NCBI GenBank assembly: GCA_002049495.1 | Contig: LLYS01000004.1 | Span: forward strand, 62,001 to 126,000 | Reading direction: 5' to 3' | DNA length: 64,000 nt | From: Epsilonproteobacteria bacterium tcs-49 | GTDB lineage: Bacteria > Campylobacterota > Campylobacteria > Campylobacterales > Sulfurovaceae | In this document: positions 15,746 to 42,415 of the stretch, piece after piece | Position numbering within the stretch: the first letter of the stretch is position 1 | Layout of the letters: each line of letters starts with the position of its first letter | Notes under the pieces: generated by a model | Told to the model about the DNA's origin: nothing | The model's database searches: none | The model's input: the letters and a program-made list of their open reading frames with translations, nothing else | Made by a program: the position numbers and the translations under genes

Positions 15746-15788
15746 TTGACCTACATCAAAAAAAATTATGGGAAAAAGAGTATATAAT
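15746..15788 (+). promoter_or_regulatory. FNR/DNR-type box and -10 for cytochrome c gene
   Basis: TTGAC-CTAC-ATCAA at 15746-15759 is followed, 23 bp later, by TATAAT at 15783-15788. This puts the box near -41.5 or -42.5, the class II activator position. The target is the cytochrome c gene starting at 15820. It is one of eight such sites in the window. Confidence 0.75.
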
Positions 15789-16179: not shown

Positions 16180-16839
16180 ATGATAGTGGATATATTAAAA
16201 AAGATCGATCTATTTCAAAGCGTGAACGAGGAGGAGCTGGAGCAAATCGCCGATTGCAGCACCATCTCAAGCTACGATAAAGACAGTGTGCTATACTATG
16301 AGGCTGAAAGTACCAACCGCCTGCTGTTTTTAACGGAAGGCTTATTAAAAGTATACAAAATAGATAAATATGACAATGAGATATTTCTGTATTATGTGTA
16401 TAAAAATACGATGATCTCCGAACTTTCCAGTTTGGAAAACAATGAGATACACTGCTTTTCCAACGCGGAATTCGCACAGGACAGCAAGATCCTCTCCATC
16501 GGTTTTGAACAGTTCAAAGAGATCTTCATGCACTCGCCGCAGCTTTCCTACGCGTTTTCAAAGGAGTTGATCGCGAAAAACCATCAACTGCAGTGTATCG
16601 TCAACCGCGAACTGGTTTTTGACGCTACCTCCAAAGTGGCGTTTATGCTTTTTAACGATCTGGAGATGTTTAACCAGCTCAAGCGCACCGAAGCGGCCTT
16701 TTTGCTGCATATCCAGCCCGAGACCCTTTCTCGGGTGTTGAAGCGTCTGGTGAGAAACGAAATTATAGAAATTGAAAAGGGAACGGTCGCTATTATTGAA
16801 AAAGAGCGGCTGCAGGCAATCTTTATGGATGTAGGATAG
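16180..16839 (+). CDS. Crp/Fnr-family transcription regulator (DNR/NssR-like, no Fe-S cysteines)
   Basis: A 219-residue regulator with an N-terminal cyclic-nucleotide-like sensor barrel (about 1-115), a dimer helix and a C-terminal winged helix. The recognition helix contains ETLSR (E181, S184, R185), the FNR-type E-x-x-S-R pattern that reads TTGA half-sites. The only cysteines (C26, C92, C139) do not form the FNR cluster motif, so a [4Fe-4S] oxygen sensor is unlikely and a haem/NO-type (DNR, NssR) sensor is more plausible. Its gene is 3 bases from the PilJ-type gene. Eight TTGA-N6-TCAA boxes in the window make it the natural candidate regulator. Confidence 0.88.
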   Translation: MIVDILKKIDLFQSVNEEELEQIADCSTISSYDKDSVLYYEAESTNRLLFLTEGLLKVYKIDKYDNEIFLYYVYKNTMISELSSLENNEIHCFSNAEFAQDSKILSIGFEQFKEIFMHSPQLSYAFSKELIAKNHQLQCIVNRELVFDATSKVAFMLFNDLEMFNQLKRTEAAFLLHIQPETLSRVLKRLVRNEIIEIEKGTVAIIEKERLQAIFMDVG

Positions 16840-16842
16840 ATT

Positions 16843-17832
16843 ATGACAACCAATAAAATCAGTACCAAGATCAAACTGCTCGGAGCGCTGCTTATCGTCT
16901 CCACCTTTACCGTTATCGTGGTTTCGATCATGCTCAATCAAAAAAACGTCAGCGACGCGCTTATTATCAATATCGCAGGGAAAGAGCGGATGCTTTCGCA
17001 AAAGATCACCAAAAGCGTATACTTTCTCAAAAATACGGGAAAAACGGATTTTCGCGAACTCGACGGGGCGATCGAGGATTTTTTGTGGGGGATCAACACC
17101 CTTAAAAACGGCCGGGAAAATTTAAACATCACCCCCGCCCCCACGCAGCAGATACGCGACCAGATCGACAAAGTGCTCAAACTGTGGAAACCGTTTCACG
17201 ACAATGTCGAAACCTTTAAAAAAGCGTTGATAAACGGCAACGAAGAGGTGATTAACCAAACCTTTATGGAAATTTCCCGATCGAACAATACCCTGCTCAA
17301 CGAAATCGACAATATCGTCACCCTCTATACCAACTACACCCGGGAAAAAACCGACTTTATCAAAAACTTCCAGTACGGCGGTTTTACGGTGCTGTTTTTA
17401 CTCGTGGCCTTTTCGATCCTCAAACTCAAACGCATCGAAAGCCACGCCAAGGAGTTTCTCAACAAATCCAAAGAGATCATGCAGCGGGATTTAAACGCCC
17501 CCATCGAACCCATGGATATCGACGGGGAAAACGAGATCGAAGAGGTAGCCAATTCGCTCAACTGCTTTATCGGTAAGGTCAACTCCGCCATGAGTTTTTC
17601 CAAATCCGCCATGGAGCAATCCAAGCAGGCATCGCACAAGCTTGAGGAGCTCACCGAGGAGTTCAGCACGATTATCGACGATCTGCACGATTGCAAAGGA
17701 GTTTCCACCCAGATCGATAAAAGCGAAGATATCATGATCCAATCCTCGGAGGATCTGCTGCGCTCCACCCAAAAGCTTGAAAATCTCAAAAGCGAACTCG
17801 ATGCCCTTTTAAAAAGTTGTAAAAGCCCTTGA
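16843..17832 (+). CDS. PilJ/NarX-type sensor membrane protein without output domain
   Basis: A 329-residue protein with membrane segments at about 11-30 and 178-193 enclosing a helical periplasmic domain. That domain starts with INIAGKERMLSQKI (about 42-55), closely resembling the NarX nitrate P-box and PilJ N-terminal domain. A HAMP-like region and a coiled coil (about 240-325) follow, but there is no methyl-accepting hairpin, kinase or cyclase. It must signal through a partner. It is in one operon with the Crp/Fnr gene. The stop codon lies inside the FNR-type box that serves moaA. Confidence 0.82.
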   Translation: MTTNKISTKIKLLGALLIVSTFTVIVVSIMLNQKNVSDALIINIAGKERMLSQKITKSVYFLKNTGKTDFRELDGAIEDFLWGINTLKNGRENLNITPAPTQQIRDQIDKVLKLWKPFHDNVETFKKALINGNEEVINQTFMEISRSNNTLLNEIDNIVTLYTNYTREKTDFIKNFQYGGFTVLFLLVAFSILKLKRIESHAKEFLNKSKEIMQRDLNAPIEPMDIDGENEIEEVANSLNCFIGKVNSAMSFSKSAMEQSKQASHKLEELTEEFSTIIDDLHDCKGVSTQIDKSEDIMIQSSEDLLRSTQKLENLKSELDALLKSCKSP

Positions 17833-17870
17833 CGCAGGTCAACCCCTCCCGTTATCAAAGCTGTTATCAT
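17829..17870 (+). promoter_or_regulatory. FNR/DNR-type box and -10 for moaA
   Basis: TTGAC-GCAG-GTCAA at 17829-17842 is followed, 22 bp later, by TATCAT at 17865-17870. A second candidate -10, TATAAT, lies at 17873-17878. The leader then carries a GC hairpin (CGGGG paired with CCCCG, 17882-17897) before the moaA ribosome site. The box overlaps the stop of the preceding gene. Confidence 0.72.
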
Positions 17871-17908: not shown

Positions 17909-18880
17909 ATGATGTTGATAGATTCCTTCGAGCGGCGGGTAAACTACCTGCGCGTCTCCGTCACCCAGCGGTGCAACTTCCGCTGCCGCTACTGTATGCC
18001 CGAAAAACCCTTCGAGTGGACGCCCAAAGAGAATATCCTCTCCTACGAGGAGCTGTTTGCTTTTATCAAAGTCGCCATCGACGAAGGGGTAAGCAAGATC
18101 CGCATCACCGGCGGCGAACCCCTGGTCAGAGATGATCTGGACAGCTTTGTCAAAATGATCTGCAATTACGCTCCAAAGATCGATGTGGCTATCACCACCA
18201 ACGGCGTACTGCTTGAGCGCTACGCCAAAGCGTTGGCAAATGCGGGCTTAAAAAGGCTCAACATCTCCCTGGATTCCCTGGAGAGAACCACCTTTCACCA
18301 CCTGAGCAAAAAAGATGCGCTGGAATCTGTATTGAAAGGGATCGATGCCGCTTTACAAGCGGGACTCAAGGTCAAACTTAACAGCGTTATCATCAAAGGT
18401 ATCAACGAGCGTGAAATTCTGCCCCTATACGAGTATGCCAAGTCCCGCGATATGGAGATCCGCTTTATCGAATTTATGGAAAATGAAAGTGCGGATCGCT
18501 CCTTGCGAACCGTCTCCTCCGCCGCTATCATCGAAGCGATCACCGGAAAATACGCCGTGGCCCCTTTACAAAATAAAACCCACAGCGCGGCAAAACCCTA
18601 TATGGATGAAGACGGCTACACCTTCGGCATCATCGAACCTTACGACGACAGTTTCTGCAAAACCTGCAACCGCATCCGCCTCAGTGCGGAGGGGGATCTG
18701 ATCCCCTGTCTCTATTACGAGGATGCGCAGAGTATCAAACCCGCACTGGGTGGCGGCGAGAAGCAGCTGCACTCCGTATTGCACGACGTGGTAGCAAACA
18801 AACCCGAAAAGAATCGCTGGAGTTACCAGGAGGAGCAAAAACAGCTCTCCGCGCGAGCCTTTTACTACACGGGGGGATAG
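17909..18880 (+). CDS. moaA: GTP 3',8-cyclase MoaA (molybdenum cofactor)
   Basis: A 323-residue radical-SAM enzyme that starts molybdopterin synthesis from GTP. The SAM-cluster motif is C22-C26-C29 (CNFRCRYC). The second 4Fe-4S cluster is C250-C253-C267. The chain ends in Gly-Gly, as functional MoaA proteins do. Either of two adjacent ATG codons could be used. The FNR-type box upstream fits the need for molybdopterin when NapA is made. The 3' end overlaps the convergent GGDEF-EAL gene by 16 bases. Confidence 0.95.
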   Translation: MMLIDSFERRVNYLRVSVTQRCNFRCRYCMPEKPFEWTPKENILSYEELFAFIKVAIDEGVSKIRITGGEPLVRDDLDSFVKMICNYAPKIDVAITTNGVLLERYAKALANAGLKRLNISLDSLERTTFHHLSKKDALESVLKGIDAALQAGLKVKLNSVIIKGINEREILPLYEYAKSRDMEIRFIEFMENESADRSLRTVSSAAIIEAITGKYAVAPLQNKTHSAAKPYMDEDGYTFGIIEPYDDSFCKTCNRIRLSAEGDLIPCLYYEDAQSIKPALGGGEKQLHSVLHDVVANKPEKNRWSYQEEQKQLSARAFYYTGG

Positions 18881-21153
18881 GTGTCGATAAAGCGCTCACA
18901 CTCTTTGATACCCAGCGGTTTGGAGTAGAGAAACCCTTGCAAAATATCGGCGCGCAACGCGGTGAGATAGTTTGCCTGGGGTTGCGTTTCCACCCCCTCT
19001 ACGATGGTTTGTAGCGACATATTCCGAGCCATATCCAAAATCGTTTTAACGATCACCTCATCCTCGCGGTCGGTGAGGATATTATCCACAAACACTTTAT
19101 CGATCTTGATATAGTCGATGGGCATCTTTTTCAAATACATCAGCGACGAATACCCCGTCCCGAAATCGTCTATCGCCGTTTGGACGCCGAGCCTGCTGCA
19201 CTCCCCGATAAATTCGCGCATCTTTTCAAAACTGTCCACCAAAGAGTGCTCGGTGATTTCAAAGATCAGATTGTTACAAACCTCCGGTTCCAAGTCGTTG
19301 ATAATCCCCACAATATCGGAATAGAACACTTGCTTTGGCGAAATGTTGACCGAGACGGGGATCTTTTTGTATACGGGGTTATGCTGCCACCTGTGCAGCA
19401 GTGCAATCACCTGTTGCAGCACGCGATCACCGATTTTTAAGATCAGATCCGACTCCTCCGCGATGGGGATAAACATGCCCGGGGCCACCAGATGATCCCC
19501 CTGCCGCCACCGCACCAGCGCCTCAAGACTGTAAACGCGGTTCGCGTGGGGATCGATCTTGGGTTGCAGGTGGATAATAAACTCATCCCTTTCCAGCGCC
19601 TTCTCCATGCTTGTTTGAAACCGCAGCTTCTCAAGCAGTTTTTGCTGGATCCTTTTATCGTAGTAGTGGAACTTGTTCTTGCCGCTGTTTTTGGCTTTAT
19701 ACATCGCCATATCCGCAAACTTGATCAACTCGTCCACGTCATCGGTATCGTCGGGGTAGAAACTGATCCCGATACTGCCGGAGATAGTGTAGTGCATCCT
19801 CTCCAGTTCAAAGGGTTTGGCCAAAATATCCAGAATCTTTTGCGCCAGTACATCCATATCGCTTTTTCGCTCCACTCCTTCGATGATGAAGATAAACTCG
19901 TCCCCGCCCACGCGGCAGATGGTATCGCTTTTTCGCAGCAGTTTTTGCAAAAGCTTCACCACATCCACCAGCAGCCGATCGCCGTAACTATGCCCCAGCG
20001 AATCGTTCACCAATTTAAAATCATCCAGATCCAGATACAAGATCGCGATCGATTTGCCCGTTCGTCTGGCGGCGACCATCGCCTTGTTTAAAATCTCATA
20101 CATCAAATTACGATTGGGGATCTTTGTCAGTGCGTCGTAATTGGCTAAAAAGTTGAGCTGCTTCTGGGTTTCATACTTTTGGGTGATATCGGAGATGATA
20201 CCCACATAGTTGTTTACCGCCCCGCCATTGTCGTAGATGGTAAAGATATCCACCTCCTGGATATATTCCGACCCATCTTTGGCTTTGTTGATCACCTCCC
20301 CGCTGAAGCGTCCCCGCTCCTTGATATCTGCCCACATCTTTTGATAAAACAGCTGGTCATGTTTGCCCGATTTTAAAAAGGAGGGATCCTGCCCGAGAAC
20401 CTCATTTCGCGTGTAGCCCGTGATCTTGCTAAAAGAGGGATTGCAATCGACGATCCTGTTCTCCCTGTCGGTGATGATGATCCCGTCTTTGGTGTGGTTA
20501 TACACCTTCGCCTGCAAAAGGATCTTGCGGTACTGGCGATCCAGGCGCTTGCGGAACACTTCAAACTTCATGCGGATACGATCGATGATGGGACGGGCGA
20601 AAAAATGCGCTTCGAGCAAAATCGTCAGCACCGTCGCCACGTAGATAAACAGCTCCCTGTTTTGCAACTCCCGCGTTTTGGCTTCACTCTCCTTTTGGAA
20701 AAGGCTGACGGCACGGTCCAGGTCGGGCAAAATCTTTTTTGAATAGTTCAAAACCTCGGGCAGCAACGCCGCATCACGGGTTTGCACGTAACGGCGCAGC
20801 AACTCCATGTAGCGTTCTATCCGTTCATTGATCCCGCCCTTTTTAAAATAGAGCTCTTTTGATTGTTTCGTTTTGAGGTTGGAAACGATATAGCCGTAAT
20901 CGGTTTGCAGCGTCTCCATAAGCTTTCGCAGTTCGCTAAGGTAGCGCTGCTTGCCCTCCTTGGCGTGCAGGTGGACGTAAAAAGCGGTTTTTTGCGAAAG
21001 CATCCGCTGCTTGCCGCTGAGATTGATCAGCTTTGCGTAGTAACTTTGCGACTGGATCAGCGAGTGCATGGTGTAGTAGGCAAAGGAAGCCCAGAAGATC
21101 AGCAGTGCAAAGATGAGTGCATAGGATTGCTTCAGCGTCATCGCTTTGAGCAT
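18865..21153 (-). CDS. PilJ-type sensor, PAS, GGDEF and EAL protein
   Basis: A 762-residue c-di-GMP protein. Two membrane segments (about 10-27 and 170-190) flank a periplasmic domain with a P-box-like INLSGKQRMLSQKT (about 43-56). A PAS domain (about 210-330), a GGDEF domain with intact GGDEF and an RxxD inhibitory site, and an EAL domain with EALVRW and DDFGTGYSS follow. Both catalytic halves look competent. The start at 21153 is chosen because CAAGGAG precedes it. The sensor matches those of the gene at 16843 and the kinase at 38812. Confidence 0.93.
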   Translation of the reverse strand: MLKAMTLKQSYALIFALLIFWASFAYYTMHSLIQSQSYYAKLINLSGKQRMLSQKTAFYVHLHAKEGKQRYLSELRKLMETLQTDYGYIVSNLKTKQSKELYFKKGGINERIERYMELLRRYVQTRDAALLPEVLNYSKKILPDLDRAVSLFQKESEAKTRELQNRELFIYVATVLTILLEAHFFARPIIDRIRMKFEVFRKRLDRQYRKILLQAKVYNHTKDGIIITDRENRIVDCNPSFSKITGYTRNEVLGQDPSFLKSGKHDQLFYQKMWADIKERGRFSGEVINKAKDGSEYIQEVDIFTIYDNGGAVNNYVGIISDITQKYETQKQLNFLANYDALTKIPNRNLMYEILNKAMVAARRTGKSIAILYLDLDDFKLVNDSLGHSYGDRLLVDVVKLLQKLLRKSDTICRVGGDEFIFIIEGVERKSDMDVLAQKILDILAKPFELERMHYTISGSIGISFYPDDTDDVDELIKFADMAMYKAKNSGKNKFHYYDKRIQQKLLEKLRFQTSMEKALERDEFIIHLQPKIDPHANRVYSLEALVRWRQGDHLVAPGMFIPIAEESDLILKIGDRVLQQVIALLHRWQHNPVYKKIPVSVNISPKQVFYSDIVGIINDLEPEVCNNLIFEITEHSLVDSFEKMREFIGECSRLGVQTAIDDFGTGYSSLMYLKKMPIDYIKIDKVFVDNILTDREDEVIVKTILDMARNMSLQTIVEGVETQPQANYLTALRADILQGFLYSKPLGIKECERFIDTYPPV

Positions 21154-21191
21154 CAATACTCCTTGCCACAGCACAGGGGCTCCGTTTTTCA

Positions 21192-21560
21192 TCATTGTAC
21201 CATTTTTCTATTATTTTGAGAAAACTCCGCTTCATATATATAAGCCGCAATTTGGCGCAGGGTATCTTTGTCATAGCCCAGCTGGGGCATCACCCCGTAC
21301 CTCTTCACCGCTTTTTCCATCACCGCCGTCCGAGCATCCGGATTTGCTACCCAGCGGGTCATATAGGAGACAAACTCCCTCTTGGCCGGAAAGATCGCTT
21401 TGTAGCGGCTTTGTACGCTGTTGATAGAGGGCGCGGAGAGGGATCTGCCGATCTCGTGGCAGGTAACGCAGTTGCCGTTAAAAAGAAGCTTCGCATACTG
21501 GGTTGATGTTTGTGCACACAGGGGGAAAAAGATCATAAATTTTAGCAGTACCGTTTTCAT
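21192..21560 (-). CDS. Mono-haem cytochrome c, periplasmic
   Basis: A 122-residue protein with a signal peptide (about 1-16), the haem motif CVTCH and later methionines (GVMPQLGYD) that could ligate the iron. It is a class I-type cytochrome but unlike the one at 15820. Its ribosome site is AAAGGATAGATA. An FNR-type promoter about 135 bases upstream (21697-21738) suggests anaerobic expression, giving a leader of roughly 130 bases. Its redox partner is unknown. Confidence 0.85.
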   Translation of the reverse strand: MKTVLLKFMIFFPLCAQTSTQYAKLLFNGNCVTCHEIGRSLSAPSINSVQSRYKAIFPAKREFVSYMTRWVANPDARTAVMEKAVKRYGVMPQLGYDKDTLRQIAAYIYEAEFSQNNRKMVQ

Positions 21561-21703: not shown

Positions 21704-21738
21704 AGTTTTTTTCTCCTAAGAGGTTTGACCTTAGTCAA
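21697..21738 (-). promoter_or_regulatory. FNR/DNR-type box and -10 for the cytochrome c at 21560
   Basis: On the minus strand the palindrome at 21738-21725 (TTGAC-TAAG-GTCAA) is followed 22 bp later by TATAAT (21702-21697), the same class II spacing as the napA promoter. The box overlaps the nrdG stop codon. Confidence 0.75.
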
Positions 21739-30217: not shown

Positions 30218-33016
30218 TTACGCTTGGTAAATTTTCACCGCACACTTTTTAAAATCCGTCTGTTTGGACATGGGACACGTCGCATCAAGACACACTTTGT
30301 TGATAAATACTTTCTCATCGAACCACGGCACGAACACAAGACCTCTCGGGGGTCTGTTTCTTCCTCTGGTTTCCACTCTTGCTTTGACTTTGCCCCGTCT
30401 GGATTCAACCCAGCACAGACCGCCCTGTTTCAAGCCTTTGTCCTGCGCATCACGGGGGTGCATATAGCACAGCGCTTCGGGAACGGCGCGGTAGAGTTCG
30501 GGTACTCTCATGGTCATGGTACCGCTGTGCCAGTGTTCAAGCACACGCCCGGTACACAACCATGTATCATACTCCGCATCCGGTTTTTCCGGCGGATCCA
30601 TATAGGGTCTGGCAAAGATTTTCGCTTTGTTTTTCAAACTCTTCTTGGTTTTATCGGTAATTCCGGTCAAATTACCCTGCGATAACGCTTTGGCCAGCGT
30701 TCCGTAGAAGGCGAAATCCCCGTAGTTTTCCTTTTTCGCGTAGGGGTCGTATTTGGAGTTGAATCTCCACTGCGTTTCCTTGCCGTCTACAACGGGCCAC
30801 TTCAGCCCACGCACTCTGTGGTAGGTATCAAAATCCGCCAGGTCGTGCCCGTGGCCTCTGCCAAACCACGCATACTCCTCAAACAGGTACTTGTGGATAA
30901 AGAAGCCATACCCCTCAAACACTTTTCCGTCGCTGCCGACCACGTTTCTAAAATCACCGTAGCCCTCAGAGTTGTCGTACCCTCTTTGGATCGGATCGTT
31001 TTGATCAAGCTTGTAACTTCTGGCTTCCTCGTTGGCAAAGAGGATGTCAAACATCGTCGTATCTTCGCTGTAGCCCATCTTTTTGGCTTCGCCGACCACG
31101 TCGGGGAGTTTCACGCCGTTTCGCAGCGTATATCCGCCCCAGAGATCTTTGACCGTAAAGCGCTTTGAAAGTTCTACCCACTGCCAGGTATCACTCATCG
31201 CATCCCCTACCGGGACAACCTGCTGTCTCCAGTGCTGGGTACGTCTTTCGGCGTTGCCGTACGCGCCCCATTTTTCATAGATCATCGCACTGGGCAGTAC
31301 CAGGTCGCTGACTTTTGCCGAGATGCCGGGGTAGCCGTCGGAGGTAACGATGAAGTTGTCCATCTCCCGCGCGGCTTTGATCCAGTGGTGCGCGTTGGCG
31401 CTGTCTTGATAGGCGTTACATACATTCACCCACGCAAACTTCACCACACCGTCTTCGATATCTCTGTGGATCTTCATAATGTGCTGGTTGCCTACGGGGT
31501 TGAGCGTACCGTTGGGGATCTTCCAGCGATCTTCGGTGATCTTTCTGTGCTTGGGGTTTTTGACCATCATATCCGCAGGCAGCCTGTGGGCAAAGGTCCC
31601 GACCTCTCTTGCCGTACCGCACGCGCTGGGCTGACCCGTGAGGGAAAAGGCGCCGCTGCCGGGGCGGGCTTGCTTGTTGAGCATAAAGTGTACATTGTAT
31701 GAAAGGGTGTTTGTCCAGCTTCCTCTGGTGTGCTGGTTCATCCCCATCGTCCAGAAGCTGACCACTTTTCGCCCCTTTTCGATATAGAGGTTCGCCAATG
31801 TCTGCAGCTTTTGCTTAAACTGATCCAAAGGCTCGTCGGGATCACCTTTGGAGATTCTTGCTACATAATCAAGGGTATAGGGTTCAAGGAACCTTTTATA
31901 CTCTTCAAAAGAGATCTCCCAGTGCTTCAAGCCCGCGGGCTTGTTTTCCATCATGTCGCCCTCTTTGTAGCCAAAGACGCTCAATGCCGGCGCTTCCGTA
32001 TCTGAAACCTCTTTTCGCATCTCCTTTCTCAGCGTCTCCATCTCTTTACCGTCATATTTGCCCTGCTGTACCGATTTTTCGTCGGAACGGCGCATACCGT
32101 ACCCCATATTCACCGGTTGGGAAGCGAAAACGATATACTTTTTGACAAAATCCCAATCGATCGCTTCGGGGTGATTGTATACGATCTCTCTTGCGATATA
32201 GTTCCACATCGCCATATCGGTATTTGGCGTAAAGATGATTTCGATATCGGCCAGATCGGAGGTTCTGTGCGTATAGGTAGACATATTGATCACCTTCACG
32301 CGATCGGGATCGGAAAGTTTTCTATCGGTTACACGCGACCACAAAATGGGGTGCATCTCCGCCATATTGGACCCCCAGGAAACCACCGTATCGGTCAATT
32401 CGATATCATCGTAACACCCGGCGGGTTCATCGATACCGAAGGTTTGGTAAAAGCCCACGACCGCACTGGCCATGCAGTGTCTGGCGTTGGGGTCGATGGC
32501 GTTGGAGCGAAAGCCGCCTTTCATCATCTTTTGCGCGGCGTAACCCTCCATCACGGTATACTGCCCCGATGCGAAGACACCCACACCCTCGGGTCCGCTT
32601 GCTTTGAGCGCTTTTTTGATGTGGACCTCCATCTCGTCAAAGGCACGCTTCCAGCTTACGGGCTTAAATTGTCCCTTTTTGCTGAAGTTGCCGTTGTCAT
32701 CCACACGCAAAAGCGGAGTTTTCAGCCTGTCGGCACCATACATAATCTTTGCATTAAAGTAACCTTTGATACAATTGAGCCCTCTGTTTACGGGAGCTGC
32801 GGGGTCACCCTTGACGGCAACGATTCGTCCATTTTTAGTCGCCATCATAATCCCGCACCCCGTACCGCAGAAACGGCACGCAGCTTTGTCCCATCTCCAA
32901 CCGCTTTGCGCCTGCTCTGAGCGCGCTTGAAGCTCACTTGGAACGGACATCCCAACAGCTGCCGCCGCTGAAGCCGCCGCAGAACTCTTGAGAAAATCTC
33001 TTCGTGATACTGACAT
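30218..33016 (-). CDS. napA: NapA, catalytic subunit of periplasmic nitrate reductase
   Basis: A 932-residue molybdopterin enzyme that reduces nitrate to nitrite in the periplasm. The Tat motif SRRDFLK opens the chain. The 4Fe-4S cysteines are C47, C50, C54 and C82 (CRFCGTGCG, then [11 protein letters not shown]). The start at 33016 follows AAAAGGAGAGAAC. It is the first gene of nap A-G-H-B-F-orf-L-D-PAS. An FNR-type class II promoter lies 30-75 bases upstream. Confidence 0.97.
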
Positions 33017-33047
33017 GTTCTCTCCTTTTTTTAGCATATCAGAGAAA

Positions 33048-33089
33048 ATTGTAACAGTATTACAAAGACGATTCCTTGACCTATGTCAA
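33048..33089 (-). promoter_or_regulatory. FNR/DNR-type box and -10 for the nap operon
   Basis: Minus strand TTGAC-ATAG-GTCAA (33089-33076), then 22 bp, then TACAAT (33053-33048). The napA start is 32 bases further on, behind a strong ribosome site. The spacing equals that of the other seven sites within one base. Confidence 0.8.
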
Positions 33090-35116: not shown

Positions 35117-35158
35117 ATCATATACTATTTATATAGTACCCGCATTGACGCAGGTCAA
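35117..35158 (-). promoter_or_regulatory. FNR/DNR-type box and -10 for hemerythrin-DUF2249-nnrS
   Basis: Minus strand TTGAC-CTGC-GTCAA (35158-35145), then 22 bp, then TATGAT (35122-35117). The hemerythrin ATG is 23 bases further on behind AAAAAGGATAG. Confidence 0.78.
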
Positions 35159-37312: not shown

Positions 37313-37354
37313 TTGATACAGGTCAATAAATCTGATCTAATAATTGGCGACAAT
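37313..37354 (+). promoter_or_regulatory. FNR/DNR-type box and weak -10 for the HD-GYP regulator
   Basis: TTGAT-ACAG-GTCAA (37313-37326), then 22 bp, then GACAAT (37349-37354, four of six consensus bases). The response regulator ATG is at 37385. Confidence 0.62.
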
Positions 37355-37384: not shown

Positions 37385-38842
37385 ATGGCACTGCAAAACC
37401 TTTCTATTTTACTGGTTGATGACGAGATGCAGATTCGCCGCCTGCTTTCGCGCTTTTTAAAAAAGCTGTGCGGCGAAGTCTTAAGCGCAAAAAACGGCAA
37501 AGAGGCGCTGGAACTTTTTGAACGCCGCCCCGTCGATATCGTCATTACCGATATCCGGATGCCGGCTATGAACGGGATCGAACTGCTCAAGGCGATCAAA
37601 GCATCCGATCCCGAACAAACGGTGATTCTTTTTTCCGGCTCCAACGATTACGACTTTTTAATAGAGGCGATCAATCTGGGAGCGGACAGGTTTTTCAACA
37701 AACCGCTGGATTTTGACAAACTCCGCTCGGGGTTGGAAAACATCGCCAAAAAACTTTCGGCGCAGAAAGAAAATGCGCAGTACCAAAAGATGATGCAGCG
37801 CCAGTGGGATATGCAGCTGCAAAACTCCAAAGAGCAGCTGCATGAGTTTGAGCAGTACCAGCAGCTGCTGATGAACTCCACCTGTATCAGAAGGTTCGAC
37901 ACAAAGGGAAAGGTCACCTACGCCAATACAAAGCTCGCGCGAAAAATGCGGCGGAAGCCGGAACAGATGTACGGTACCCCCGCATATAAAGACGCCGCAC
38001 GGAAGCAGCGCCCCCTCTCTTTTGAAAAAGTGCGCAGCATCCTCAAACAAAGCCCCCGGTTTCAATCTATCATCGCCCACTCCCGCGAGGGGGATTCCCC
38101 GTTGTACCTTGACAGCTTTATAGCCCCTATCAAGGATCAAAGCGGCGGCATCAAAGAGTTTCTCGAAATCGGCTACGACGTCAGCAGGATCTATTCGCTC
38201 AACCGCCGTATGGAGAAACTCAACGATGAAGTGATCTACCTGTTGGGGTCCGTTGCCGAAAGCCGCTCTATCGAGACGGCTTCCCATCTGCACAGAGTCA
38301 CGGGCTACTGCTCAATTTTGGCAAAATACACCGATATGAGCAAAGAGGAGCGGGAAATTTTTAAACGTGCCGTACCGCTGCACGATATCGGCAAGATCGC
38401 CGTACCAAACCGCATCTTGCAAAAACGGGGCCCCTTAGACGACGAAGAGTTTGAGCAGGTCAAGGAACACACCACGATAGGCCACAATATCCTGTGCAGC
38501 GTAGACAATGATATCTTTACCGCGGCGGCCGATATCGCTTTAAGCCACCATGAAAAATATGACGGCAGCGGTTACCCGCTGGGACTCAAGGGCACCGAGA
38601 TCAGCTTCATGGGGCGCCTCGTGGCTATAGCGGACGTATTTGACGCCCTGACTTCCAAACGCGCTTATAAGAAGGAGTGGGATATTGACCAATCGCTGCA
38701 CATCATAAAAAAAGAGCGGGGATCCCACTTTGATCCGCAGATACACGATCTGTTTTTTGATCATATCGATGAGATTTTAGAGTTCAAACAGCAGATCAGA
38801 GAGGGAAAACTGTGCAGTTTTTTACACCGCCGCTGCAACTGA
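37385..38842 (+). CDS. Response regulator with PAS-like and HD-GYP domains
   Basis: A 485-residue protein. The receiver (1-120) carries the acidic pair DDE and a phosphorylation aspartate in VITDIRMP. A coiled coil and a degenerate PAS domain (about 165-275) follow. The HD-GYP domain has HDIGK and GSGYPLGLKG intact, so c-di-GMP hydrolysis is expected. It overlaps the downstream kinase gene by 31 bases, making a tight two-component pair under an FNR-type box. Confidence 0.93.
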   Translation: MALQNLSILLVDDEMQIRRLLSRFLKKLCGEVLSAKNGKEALELFERRPVDIVITDIRMPAMNGIELLKAIKASDPEQTVILFSGSNDYDFLIEAINLGADRFFNKPLDFDKLRSGLENIAKKLSAQKENAQYQKMMQRQWDMQLQNSKEQLHEFEQYQQLLMNSTCIRRFDTKGKVTYANTKLARKMRRKPEQMYGTPAYKDAARKQRPLSFEKVRSILKQSPRFQSIIAHSREGDSPLYLDSFIAPIKDQSGGIKEFLEIGYDVSRIYSLNRRMEKLNDEVIYLLGSVAESRSIETASHLHRVTGYCSILAKYTDMSKEEREIFKRAVPLHDIGKIAVPNRILQKRGPLDDEEFEQVKEHTTIGHNILCSVDNDIFTAAADIALSHHEKYDGSGYPLGLKGTEISFMGRLVAIADVFDALTSKRAYKKEWDIDQSLHIIKKERGSHFDPQIHDLFFDHIDEILEFKQQIREGKLCSFLHRRCN

Positions 38843-40245
38843 TCCGCCAACTCCGTGACTCCCTTTGCAGCGGTGAAAAGGCAAGCCGAAAGTTGGTGCG
38901 GATGCACCTGCTGGCGTTTGTGATAACGACCTCGGCAATCATCAGCTCCTTTTTGGCGCTGTATTACTTAAGCGGTTTGCAAAAACAGGATGCGCACGTT
39001 ATCAATCTCAGCGGCAAGCAGCGGATGCTGACGCAAAAAACGATCCTGCTTGCGACCAAATACACCTATGTTAAAAATCCCGACGATATGGAAACCCTGC
39101 AGCGGCTGCTGCACCGTATCCATCAAAACGAAACCGTCCTCAGAAAGAGGGCAAACCTGCAACAAAGCCCGCTGCATGGAAAGATCGATCAAAAGATACA
39201 AACCCTCATCCGCTATAAGGAGATGCTGCAAACCTCCGCTCCCTCCCTGAAAATTCTCGCGCGGTTTGAACGGACGGCGCTGGAGCTGCAAAACCTCTTT
39301 GACCGAAGCACGGAGACAAAAGAGCGCGCCCTGGGCCAAAAGATCGAACTGCTGCACAAAGTGCTCCTTCTTACCGCCACCGTCTTGCTGCTGACCGTCG
39401 TCGCGGAGACACTGCTGATCTTTCGCCCCGCTATCTTCGAGATACTTAAACGCACCCAACAGCTGCACACGCTCAACGGGCAGCTGCACAAACGGGTGGA
39501 ACAAGCGGTCGCGCAAAAAAGGGAGCAGGAGCTGCTGCTGATGCAAAAGACCAAAGCCGCCGAAATGGGAGAACTGATCAACAATATCGCCCACCAGTGG
39601 CGCCAACCCATCACCATCGTCAATCTCTACCTCGATTCCGTAGCCGAGGATTTGAAAGAGGGCTCTTTTGATAAAAAAGAGTTGCTGCAGATGCTGCAAA
39701 GTGCCAAGGAGACCATGGGGCACATGTCCGAAACCATCGATGAGTTCCGCAGCTTTTTTCTCCCCGCAAAAACACGGGAGCGATTCAACCTGAAAGACTC
39801 CATCCTCCGTGTTGAAAGGTTGATGCACCACCATTTAAGCTACCTTGATATCGATGTGTGTTACGACTTCAACGAAGGGGATTTTAGCGCATTCGGCCGC
39901 CGCGGGGAGCTGGAACAATGCCTTATGGTCCTGATCAACAACGCCAAAGACGCCATCCTTTCCCGAAGAAAAAACTCAAAACACAAAGGCGGGACGCTGC
40001 TGTTTAGCCTGCAAAAAGACACCGCAGGAACCAGCCTCTCCCTGACCGATGACGGAGGGGGTATCCCCAAGGGGATCGGTTCAAAAATCTTTGAACCCTA
40101 CTTTAGCACAAAAGAGAGTGAAGGCACGGGCGTGGGGCTGTATATGTGCAAAAAGATCATCACCGACCGTTTCGGCGGTGATCTGGTATTTAGCGTGGCA
40201 AACGGTTATACCACCTTTACGATCATCCTTCCGGAGGATCCATAA
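38812..40245 (+). CDS. Sensor histidine kinase with PilJ/NarX-like periplasmic domain
   Basis: A 477-residue kinase. Two membrane segments (about 33-52 and 185-203) enclose a helical domain with the P-box-like INLSGKQRMLTQKT (64-77). The phosphoacceptor helix is NIAHQWRQP (H261), the form common in Campylobacterota, and the ATPase part has DDGGGIPKG and GTGVGLYMCK. It probably controls the HD-GYP regulator with which its gene overlaps. Confidence 0.92.
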   Translation: MQFFTPPLQLIRQLRDSLCSGEKASRKLVRMHLLAFVITTSAIISSFLALYYLSGLQKQDAHVINLSGKQRMLTQKTILLATKYTYVKNPDDMETLQRLLHRIHQNETVLRKRANLQQSPLHGKIDQKIQTLIRYKEMLQTSAPSLKILARFERTALELQNLFDRSTETKERALGQKIELLHKVLLLTATVLLLTVVAETLLIFRPAIFEILKRTQQLHTLNGQLHKRVEQAVAQKREQELLLMQKTKAAEMGELINNIAHQWRQPITIVNLYLDSVAEDLKEGSFDKKELLQMLQSAKETMGHMSETIDEFRSFFLPAKTRERFNLKDSILRVERLMHHHLSYLDIDVCYDFNEGDFSAFGRRGELEQCLMVLINNAKDAILSRRKNSKHKGGTLLFSLQKDTAGTSLSLTDDGGGIPKGIGSKIFEPYFSTKESEGTGVGLYMCKKIITDRFGGDLVFSVANGYTTFTIILPEDP

Positions 40246-40924
40246 ACGACAGCGGTGTTCTTTTCTGTATCCGCTTACGCAGACTCTCTTTAAAGGAGGG
40301 TGCCGCCGCGTTGGAGAAGAGCAGGTTTTTAACTGTTTTTTCATTATCGCTCGGATTTTGAAACGCCCGGGTCGCTTCCATAACGGTGACGGCGATAGGA
40401 GGACGCTGCACCAGATACAACCCGTCCGCGCGGCAGACCACTCCCTCTTGCAAAACCCGCATATACCACCCGGTTTTCCCGCTATCGTAAATATATCTTG
40501 TAAAGCCGCTCTCCTCCCAGCGTTTGGAAATTTTCCAGCAGGGTTTTCGGGGTTGCGTTACTTCAAAAAGCGCGGTTCCGATACGGTAGATATCCCCGAT
40601 ACACACCTGCTCTTCGCTCAGCGTACTGACGGTAAAGTTTTCCCCCAACGCGCCGAAGGGCAGATGGGATCGCTGTAAAAAGCGGCACCAGGATTCGTAA
40701 TGCAGTACGGAGTTGACAAAGATCGCTTTATCCACTCCGCCGTGATGCGCCGTATCGGCGACCTCATCTCCCTCAAGCCCGTCAAACCCCACGTTTAACA
40801 TGCCATCAACGCTCTCTTTAAAAAAAGCGGTGGTCCATTTGGGAGTGACGCAACTGTGTTTTTGCTCTATGGTCTGTACTTTTCCAGTCTGTATCGACAG
40901 TAGCTGCGCTACATTGATTGCCAT
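40223..40924 (-). CDS. MOSC-domain protein (YiiM-like)
   Basis: A 233-residue protein with the YiiM/MOSC pattern: DGLEGDEVADTAHHGG, FGALGENFTV, IGTALFEVTQPRKPCWKI. The conserved cysteine in RKPCWK is the expected Mo-cofactor ligand. YiiM-type proteins reduce N-hydroxylated compounds and confer resistance to hydroxylaminopurine. It has its own FNR-type box next to the hydroxylamine-linked hcp gene, supporting a role against N-hydroxylated stress products. Confidence 0.85.
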   Translation of the reverse strand: MAINVAQLLSIQTGKVQTIEQKHSCVTPKWTTAFFKESVDGMLNVGFDGLEGDEVADTAHHGGVDKAIFVNSVLHYESWCRFLQRSHLPFGALGENFTVSTLSEEQVCIGDIYRIGTALFEVTQPRKPCWKISKRWEESGFTRYIYDSGKTGWYMRVLQEGVVCRADGLYLVQRPPIAVTVMEATRAFQNPSDNEKTVKNLLFSNAAAPSFKESLRKRIQKRTPLSFMDPPEG

Positions 40925-40949: not shown

Positions 40950-40991
40950 ATCGTAGCAAATTATAAAAAGAAAGGGTTTGATCCGTATCAA
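40950..40991 (-). promoter_or_regulatory. FNR/DNR-type box and -10 for the MOSC gene
   Basis: Minus strand TTGAT-ACGG-ATCAA (40991-40978), a full match to the FNR consensus, then 22 bp, then TACGAT (40955-40950). A TATAAT also occurs 12 bp after the box; at that spacing the box would block rather than activate. Confidence 0.68.
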
Positions 40992-41019: not shown

Positions 41020-42342
41020 TTAGGCGGCTTGAAGAAGTTTTTTCAAATCCTCTTCGGCGTCGCCGGTGAGGTGCAGATTGAAGTGCTGCGCAAGGAAGTT
41101 GAAGATATCCTCGTTGACAAACTGCGGCGGCTTCGGCCCCAGATAGATATCTTGAACACCCAGACTAAACAGCGCCAGCAGAATGATCACCGCTTTTTGC
41201 TCCATCCAGGAAAGCACGATGGAGACGGGCAGGTCGTTGATAGGCGTATCCAGCGCTTCGCTCAGCGCTTTGGCGATCTCGACGGCGCCGTTGCTGTCGT
41301 TGCACTGCCCAAGGTCGATATAGCGGGGGATATCGGTCCCTTCGATATTGCCAAAATCGATATCGTTAAAGCGGAACTTCCCGCAGCTTGAGGTGATGAT
41401 GACGCAGTCTTTTGGCAGGTTTTGCGCCATTTCACGGTAGTAGTTGCCCGCTTTTCCGGGAGCATCGCAACCGGCGATGACGAAAAACTTGCGGATTTTG
41501 CCCTCTTGCAGCGCTTGCAGAATTTGCGGCGCCAAAGTAAGCACGGTTTTGTAGTGGTGTCCGGTGTTGAGTGTGGTATCCGCGTCCCAGCCGTCGGCGT
41601 CTTCACACTGCAGCGTACGCTCGATCAACTCGCTGAAATCGTCGTTTTCGATCTGTGTGGCTCCCTCCACACCCACGATCTTGTAGGTAAAAAGCCGGTC
41701 CAGATAGCCGCAATCTTTTTTAGGAGGTACGATGCAGTTGGTGTTGACTACGAAGGTTCCGGGAAAGTGCTCCATCAGTTTGGCCTGATCGAACCACGCT
41801 TTGCCCACGTTGCCTTTGAGGTGTTCATACTTTCGCAGCTCGGGATAGCCGTGCGCGGGCAGCATCTCGGAGTGGGTGTAGATATTGATCCCCCTGTCTT
41901 TGGTCGCTTCCAGCAGCTTTTCAAGCATCTCCAGGTTGTGGCCGCTGACCAGAATCGCTTTGCCCTCGACCCGGTTTTGCGATACGGTTACGGGCGTGGG
42001 GACGCCGAACTTGCCCGTATGGGCGTTTGAAAGCTTATCCATCACCTCCACGCCCGCGCTGCCCACTTTCATCAGCTGGGCGATGTGGTCTTGGAAATTG
42101 AAATTGACGTTTGTAAGCGTAAAGTACAGCGTCTCGCTCATCACGTCATCGACGCTTTTGGTCTGCGCGGGCTGCAGCTCGTTGAGGTGTTCACGGTACG
42201 CCGACAACCCTTTGAGACCGAAAATCATCGTATCTTGCAATCTGGTTAAATTCTCATCTTTCCCGCAGGTCCCTACCTCGGCGCCGTTGCTGCCGCATCC
42301 GCCCGGGGCACTCATTTCGCATTGGTAACAAAACATACTCAT
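41020..42342 (-). CDS. hcp: Hydroxylamine reductase (hybrid-cluster protein), short class III form
   Basis: A 440-residue hybrid-cluster protein. The N-terminal cysteines C5, C8, C16 and C26 bind a 4Fe-4S cluster, and later cysteines/histidines (HNLEM, NTNCIVPP, GCDAPGK, SSCGKFRFND) bind the hybrid cluster. The length is about 100 residues below E. coli Hcp and fits the class III form missing one helical bundle. Hcp removes NO or hydroxylamine in anaerobes. An FNR-type box lies upstream. Confidence 0.92.
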   Translation of the reverse strand: MSMFCYQCEMSAPGGCGSNGAEVGTCGKDENLTRLQDTMIFGLKGLSAYREHLNELQPAQTKSVDDVMSETLYFTLTNVNFNFQDHIAQLMKVGSAGVEVMDKLSNAHTGKFGVPTPVTVSQNRVEGKAILVSGHNLEMLEKLLEATKDRGINIYTHSEMLPAHGYPELRKYEHLKGNVGKAWFDQAKLMEHFPGTFVVNTNCIVPPKKDCGYLDRLFTYKIVGVEGATQIENDDFSELIERTLQCEDADGWDADTTLNTGHHYKTVLTLAPQILQALQEGKIRKFFVIAGCDAPGKAGNYYREMAQNLPKDCVIITSSCGKFRFNDIDFGNIEGTDIPRYIDLGQCNDSNGAVEIAKALSEALDTPINDLPVSIVLSWMEQKAVIILLALFSLGVQDIYLGPKPPQFVNEDIFNFLAQHFNLHLTGDAEEDLKKLLQAA

Positions 42343-42373: not shown

Positions 42374-42415
42374 ATGGTATTGGCTTTTCATCTCCTTTGC
42401 ATTGACGCGTATCAA
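42374..42415 (-). promoter_or_regulatory. FNR/DNR-type box and -10 for hcp
   Basis: Minus strand TTGAT-ACGC-GTCAA (42415-42402), then 22 bp, then TACCAT (42379-42374). The hcp ATG is 32 bases further on after CAGGAGACAATT. Confidence 0.77.

Follow-up and report, generated by a model that had tools for sequence, protein, structure and literature searches.

Organization of the regulator–receptor locus

The window, a 64,000-nucleotide stretch of the Epsilonproteobacteria bacterium tcs-49 genome, carries a gene for a Crp/Fnr-superfamily regulator followed on the same strand by a gene for a membrane receptor (Table 1). The regulator ORF extends from an ATG at 16180 to a TAG stop at 16839, and the receptor ORF from an ATG at 16843 to a TGA stop at 17832, which leaves a gap of 3 bases between them.

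Table 1. Features of the regulator–receptor module, FNR-like sites and likely target genes, numbered from the first base of the window
Feature	Position	Strand	Basis
Crp/Fnr-superfamily regulator, NssA-type (paired clade), 219 aa	16180..16839	+	Pfam; DNR best PDB relative; tree; 43.5% identity to the paired protein of W. succinogenes
Transmembrane receptor of the NarQ/PilJ type, 329 aa, lacking a kinase, cyclase or MCP module	16843..17832	+	Pfam, NCBIfam, AlphaFold, Foldseek
Receptor P-box, residues 41-60, nitrate-type G46-x-x-R49	16963..17022	+	Sequence; G46 and R49 kept in 81/81 single-domain P-box receptors
HAMP-like linker after TM2, residues 199-250	17437..17592	+	NCBIfam NarQ match to 249; Foldseek to NarQ sensor-TM-HAMP; below Pfam threshold
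Conserved helix of the C-terminal tail, residues 292-322, putative output element	17716..17808	+	E295/I299 conservation; tandem-receptor motif; helix 288-326 in model
moaA (molybdenum cofactor synthesis), next gene downstream of the pair	17909..18880	+	TIGR02666; MoaA near the pair in 21/66 loci
napA, start of nap cluster, likely target	30218..33037	-	napA adjacency in 39 P-box loci; site at 33076
hcp (hybrid cluster protein), likely target	41020..42342	-	Site at 42402; Hcp beside the W. succinogenes pair
FNR-like site TTGACCTACATCAA, upstream of c-type cytochrome gene (15814) and the pair	15746..15759	.	Motif match
FNR-like site TTGACGCAGGTCAA, 67-80 bp upstream of moaA	17829..17842	.	Motif match
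FNR-like site TTGACCTATGTCAA, upstream of napA	33076..33089	.	Motif match; napA sites in 40/51 loci
FNR-like site TTGACGCGTATCAA, upstream of hcp	42402..42415	.	Motif match; same place in W. succinogenes
Exact TTGAY-N4-RTCAA site, ~165 bp upstream of c-type cytochrome gene (21192-21560, -)	21725..21738	.	
Exact TTGAY-N4-RTCAA site	35145..35158	.	
Exact TTGAY-N4-RTCAA site, upstream of receiver/HD-GYP gene (37385)	37313..37326	.	
Exact TTGAY-N4-RTCAA site, upstream of MOSC-like gene (40223-40924, -)	40978..40991	.	

The regulator matched the Pfam families cNMP_binding (E 4.6e-9) and HTH_Crp_2 (E 4.4e-7), and thus has both the cNMP-binding-like domain and the HTH_Crp domain looked for in an Nss-type protein. 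Its best relative among solved structures is the NO regulator DNR (3dkw, E 7e-16). The four cysteines that hold the 4Fe-4S cluster of FNR oxygen sensors are absent from the regulator; its only cysteines, C26, C92 and C139, do not follow the FNR pattern and are not kept among relatives. Alignment with CRP revealed that the cAMP-binding Arg82-Ser83 is not retained either. The recognition helix reads PETLSR.

For the receptor, PilJ was the only Pfam match above threshold (E 1.5e-15). No kinase, GGDEF or MCP domain was matched in Pfam, the signalling domain that defines chemoreceptors thus being missing, and profile searches detected neither DHp nor HATPase domains. The NCBIfam NarQ model covers residues 3-249 only. 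Two hydrophobic stretches were predicted, at about 12-30 and 177-198, and the AlphaFold model (pLDDT 82.4) places a periplasmic helical bundle between two transmembrane helices, followed by a linker. Past the linker it shows only helices, one at 230-281 and one at 288-326, separated by a low-confidence loop. Confident Foldseek matches (E <= 0.001) were confined to fragments of NarQ spanning sensor, TM and HAMP (5jgp) and to the nitrate domain of McpN (6gcv). To judge from sequence and model, the first 250 residues look like NarQ, with about 80 helical residues in place of the kinase. A kinase-like (DHp) fold for this cytoplasmic hairpin was considered and rejected, NarQ sensor-TM-HAMP and McpN being the only confident matches.

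The periplasmic domain is NarX-like, and its P-box, INIAGKERMLSQKI, includes G46-x-x-R49; G-x-x-R is the nitrate-binding motif (PMC8199190). Several claims of the original prediction hold at this level: two genes 3 bases apart, a sensor with a nitrate-P-box-like motif (intact here, with fold matches to NarQ and McpN) and with no kinase, cyclase or chemotaxis module, and a regulator with an FNR-type recognition helix and no Fe-S cysteines. The further claim that the sensor lacks any output domain stands for known output domains but overlooks a conserved C-terminal helix, which is a candidate for that role.

Three PilJ-domain proteins exceed the cut-off in the genome, all of them encoded in the window (16843-17832, 18865-21195 and 38812-40245). 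Each has a G-x-x-R P-box, and their outputs differ: a tail-only receptor, a PAS-GGDEF-EAL protein and a histidine kinase, respectively.

Conservation and phylogeny of the pair

Regulator and receptor form a conserved module across Campylobacterales. In total, 182 adjacent pairs were collected from families of this order, the commonest junction being a 4-base ATGA-type overlap on the same strand. The top regulator homologues of 60 related genomes adjoin a receptor match; a close regulator occurs in 124 of 399 genomes of the order, and the receptor profile detects a partner beside most. The regulator was also scanned against 84,980 species, and the neighbours of the best 80 named relatives were examined. 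All 80 look like Campylobacterota, and the receptor lies immediately downstream in 77, with two at a contig edge and one (L115) without a receptor. The original prediction had proposed a survey of co-occurrence and would have been abandoned had neighbouring genomes not conserved the pair; conservation proved strong.

Across 116 loci, the slot directly after the regulator is occupied by the receptor family in 115 by clustering (two clusters, 115 + 1) and in 113 by profile. Since this slot is constant while the flanking slots -1 and +2 split into 27 clusters each, general synteny does not explain the pairing. Pairing also follows regulator score: with few exceptions, regulators at or above 189 bits are paired and those at or below 184 bits are unpaired. 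Among ten high-scoring unpaired regulators, six are accounted for by frameshifts, runs of N, ends of contigs or a somewhat wider gap, which leaves L115, L254, L256 and L160, the last with a degraded receptor, as genuine cases.

In the tree, paired regulators form one clade (SH-aLRT 100) apart from the unpaired Nss-type regulators, and contain two receptor losses, both on long branches. Among the residues that discriminate paired from unpaired proteins are E144, M156 and D160, located in the long helix before the DNA-binding domain and just past it, and Q179 and R192 within that domain; by sequence comparison these residues are candidates for a receptor-facing surface, and no more.

The receptor-less regulators L256 and L254 have branch lengths of 0.73 and 1.17, which suggests relaxed or changed selection after the loss. 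At the degraded receptor locus of a Helicobacteraceae genome (L160:2459-2656), a 65-aa open frame retains the tail motif SEDIATQSSEEFI, perhaps as a soluble remnant. A small-genome Campylobacterales family (L133-L145) carries regulator relatives without a receptor, belonging to the unpaired clade. Two records, L052 and L083, are titled Helicobacter pylori PMSS1 and Desulfosporosinus; the closest relatives of the locus are Campylobacterota, and the MAG names look wrong.

Probable correspondence to NssA of Wolinella succinogenes

NssA of Wolinella succinogenes was reportedly described by Kern & Simon 2016. One genome in the collection (G488) encodes an NrfA identical to PDB 1fs9, which we take to be the W. 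succinogenes protein, and was therefore assigned to this species. Between its napA and hcp genes lie a paired regulator and a receptor with tandem PilJ domains and two P-boxes; a second, unpaired regulator adjoins an NnrS-like gene. The window regulator is 43.5% identical to the paired protein and 33.3% to the unpaired one. Published identities of two Nitrosophilus labii regulators to NssA/NssB, given in a passage of PMC11539149, are 44.8/29.2 and 33.3/50.0. The homologues in genome G108, taken as N. labii or a close relative, gave 45.2/28.6 and 33.2/48.8 against the paired and unpaired W. succinogenes regulators. Because these values match, the paired regulator is with high probability NssA, an assignment made from identities and position rather than from a locus tag, and the unpaired one is, with similarly high probability, NssB. 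The window regulator is closer to this putative NssA than to NssB by both identity and tree.

NssA is described as a nitrate-responsive regulator that raises nap and nrf with nitrate (PMC6682613). How nitrate is sensed needs further study, according to PMC8139620.

Receptor types and their likely target operons

Three receptor architectures were distinguished: one P-box domain, as in the window; two in tandem, as in W. succinogenes and other Helicobacteraceae; and one domain without a P-box. All complete receptors end in an unannotated C-terminal helix with the motif SEDxxIxSxExL...LxxLK. Tail residues E295 and I299 are invariant among 105 single-domain receptors, and the motif is present in 74 of 74 complete tandem receptors. 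The ligand site is divided by class: G46 and R49 are each kept in 81/81 single-domain P-box receptors, and in the P-box-less class R49 is replaced by Lys in 24/24 and G46 by Asn in 20/24. NarQ and NarX turn ligand-insensitive when the P-box arginine is exchanged, even for lysine (PMC8199190). A comparison of nap-type with nos-type receptors gives 44% identity in the tail, as against about 18-25% for TM1, the rest of the periplasmic domain, the linker and the long helix. From this conservation, the tail helix is a candidate for the receptor output.

Exact TTGA-N6-TCAA sites occur eight times in the window, against 1.6 expected. The form TTGAY-N4-RTCAA is the one expected, by sequence, for a PETLSR helix; it lies upstream of napA in 40 of 51 loci and of nosZ in 20 of 25, and 2.7% of random 280-bp windows contain it. 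At the W. succinogenes locus, exact sites precede napA and hcp. Both genes are thus likely targets of the regulator there and in the window, in line with the original prediction, which had named nap and hcp. The genome also encodes an unpaired relative of the regulator, and the sites in the window may be used by either protein.

Receptor type tracks operon context. Among pairs with enough flanking sequence, 39 P-box pairs are accompanied by napA and one by nosZ; P-box-less pairs number 19 with nosZ and none with napA (Fisher's p 1e-14, the P-box-less class being a single clade in the tree and so representing one evolutionary event, not 19). The nosZ gene, its product confirmed by TIGR04246, directly follows nearly every P-box-less pair. 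Nitrate, the input that had originally been predicted, suits the P-box receptors but is not the only input, because the nos-linked paralogue has lost the nitrate-binding arginine. On sequence grounds, the Sulfurimonas-type nos-linked receptor is a candidate nitrogen-oxide input, possibly for N2O, in nos control.

Pairs with R49K (and mostly Asn at position 46) directly upstream of clade II nosZ were recorded at L035, L041, L045, L116, L128, L180, L270-L272, L274-L283 and L288. At L054, exceptionally, a P-box-positive pair is directly upstream of nosZ. Equating the nos-linked pair with NssC was considered and dropped, since only two such regulators, the paired one and the unpaired NssB-like one, pass the threshold in W. 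succinogenes.

These patterns bear on two readings in which the receptor would not signal to the regulator in the way the pairing suggests. The genes could be neighbours for operonic convenience, both being needed for nitrate respiration with no mutual signalling. In many genomes the pair does have nap or moa genes close by; yet its nap, moa and nos neighbours vary while the pair is constant, and a receptor with no known output keeps an invariant tail even where its input diverges, so we regard this as very improbable. It is somewhat less improbable, though still clearly disfavoured, that the regulator itself senses a nitrogen oxide (NO, like DNR), with the receptor doing no more than tuning it or playing a subsidiary part in nitrate respiration. 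Such self-sensing would fit the kinship with DNR, the existence of unpaired Nss-type regulators and the persistence of two paired-clade regulators without a receptor. Against it speak the near-universal adjacency, mostly as same-strand overlap, the receptor Arg to Lys change that goes hand in hand with the switch in target operon from nap to nos, and the long regulator branches that accompany receptor loss.

Tests for contact between the two proteins

Direct contact between receptor and regulator, as originally proposed, was neither supported nor excluded by two tests of coevolution and an AlphaFold model of the fused chain. In mean-field DCA (179 pairs, Neff 115), inter-protein scores were above those of a within-class shuffle, a null that breaks shared ancestry, and the top pairs were unclustered. 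With MI-APC (104 single-domain pairs), couplings of the regulator to the cytoplasmic part of the receptor were not above those to the periplasmic control. The stop codon of the regulator (TAG) and the start codon of the receptor share a reading frame, and the natural read-through product was modelled in AlphaFold solely so as to have the two chains in one prediction; this single fused chain reached a pTM of 0.46, with tail confidence no higher, and left contact unsupported.

The missing contact signal agrees with a pathway without touching, in which the tail acts on a third component, a signalling protein or small molecule, that changes the regulator. The genome does encode two further signalling proteins that share the receptor's input domain, a GGDEF-EAL protein and a histidine kinase. 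No third gene, however, is conserved beside the pair, as the variety of its flanking slots shows, and the module persists in families whose neighbouring genes differ widely. An intermediary of this kind is accordingly unlikely in our view, though it is the most serious of the alternatives.

Proposed mechanism

The pair constitutes a real and, it appears, previously unreported signalling module, in which a kinase-less nitrate receptor most likely acts directly on NssA. Specifically, we consider it probable, with appreciable room for doubt, that the module serves nitrate respiration and that the nitrate-bound receptor acts through its tail on the NssA-type regulator. Nitrate would bind through G-x-x-R where the periplasmic domains of the NarQ-like receptor dimerize, and the resulting change would pass the two membrane helices and the HAMP-like linker, as in NarQ, to the helical hairpin that ends in the tail. 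The tail would then act directly on the co-encoded Crp/Fnr regulator, which would bind TTGAY-N4-RTCAA sites at nap, hcp and related promoters. As to the sign of this action, we lean slightly towards a receptor that holds the regulator inactive at the membrane and then releases it, because two lineages have lost the receptor and kept the regulator.

More tentatively, and stopping just short of favouring it, we suggest a new signalling class: kinase-less receptors of the sensor-kinase type would control Crp/Fnr regulators directly via the C-terminal helix, with interchangeable inputs. The nitrate form would serve nap, and the Arg49 to Lys nosZ form would read another nitrogen oxide, possibly N2O.

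Relation to known systems and significance

The receptor shares with the sensor kinases NarX and NarQ the periplasmic four-helix nitrate domain, the P-box, two transmembrane helices and a HAMP-like linker, but lacks the DHp and catalytic kinase domains and a response regulator, having a helix-loop-helix of about 80 residues with the tail instead. The chemoreceptors McpN and PilJ contain the same PilJ-type ligand-binding domain (6gcv, 7zjr) and, unlike the receptor, an MCP signalling domain. The regulator has the fold and FNR-type recognition helix of DNR and other Crp/Fnr one-component regulators; it differs from such proteins in having neither the Arg82-Ser83 of CRP nor the four cysteines of FNR, and in almost always neighbouring a receptor gene. 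In MalK-MalT, PtsG-Mlc and LysP-CadC, membrane proteins control a transcription factor by contact. The present module would likewise carry a signal from membrane to regulator without a phosphorelay, but those membrane proteins are transporters or permeases, and here the partner would be a dedicated sensor-kinase-like receptor without a kinase. If true, this would to our knowledge be the first case of a membrane receptor dedicated to a Crp/Fnr regulator.

NssA itself is among the nearest known systems: the putative NssA of W. succinogenes falls in the same clade as the window regulator, its gene lies beside nap and hcp, and TTGA-N6-TCAA sites at nap occur in the window too. The difference lies in how it is understood, as the passages on Nss in reviews treat it as stand-alone, call its sensing route unknown and mention no membrane partner (PMC6682613, PMC8139620, PMC11539149). 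In the open-licence PMC literature, no paper describing the regulator-receptor pair was found, and the part of it examined names no N2O sensor.

Together, these results offer a concrete, testable answer to the open question of how NssA-type regulators of Campylobacterota sense nitrate. Among the Campylobacterota are bacteria that reduce nitrate and N2O in vents, sediments and wastewater, and the nos-linked paralogue is a candidate input protein for the control of clade II nitrous oxide reductase. The module points to a new route by which a nitrate signal may travel from outside the cell to DNA.
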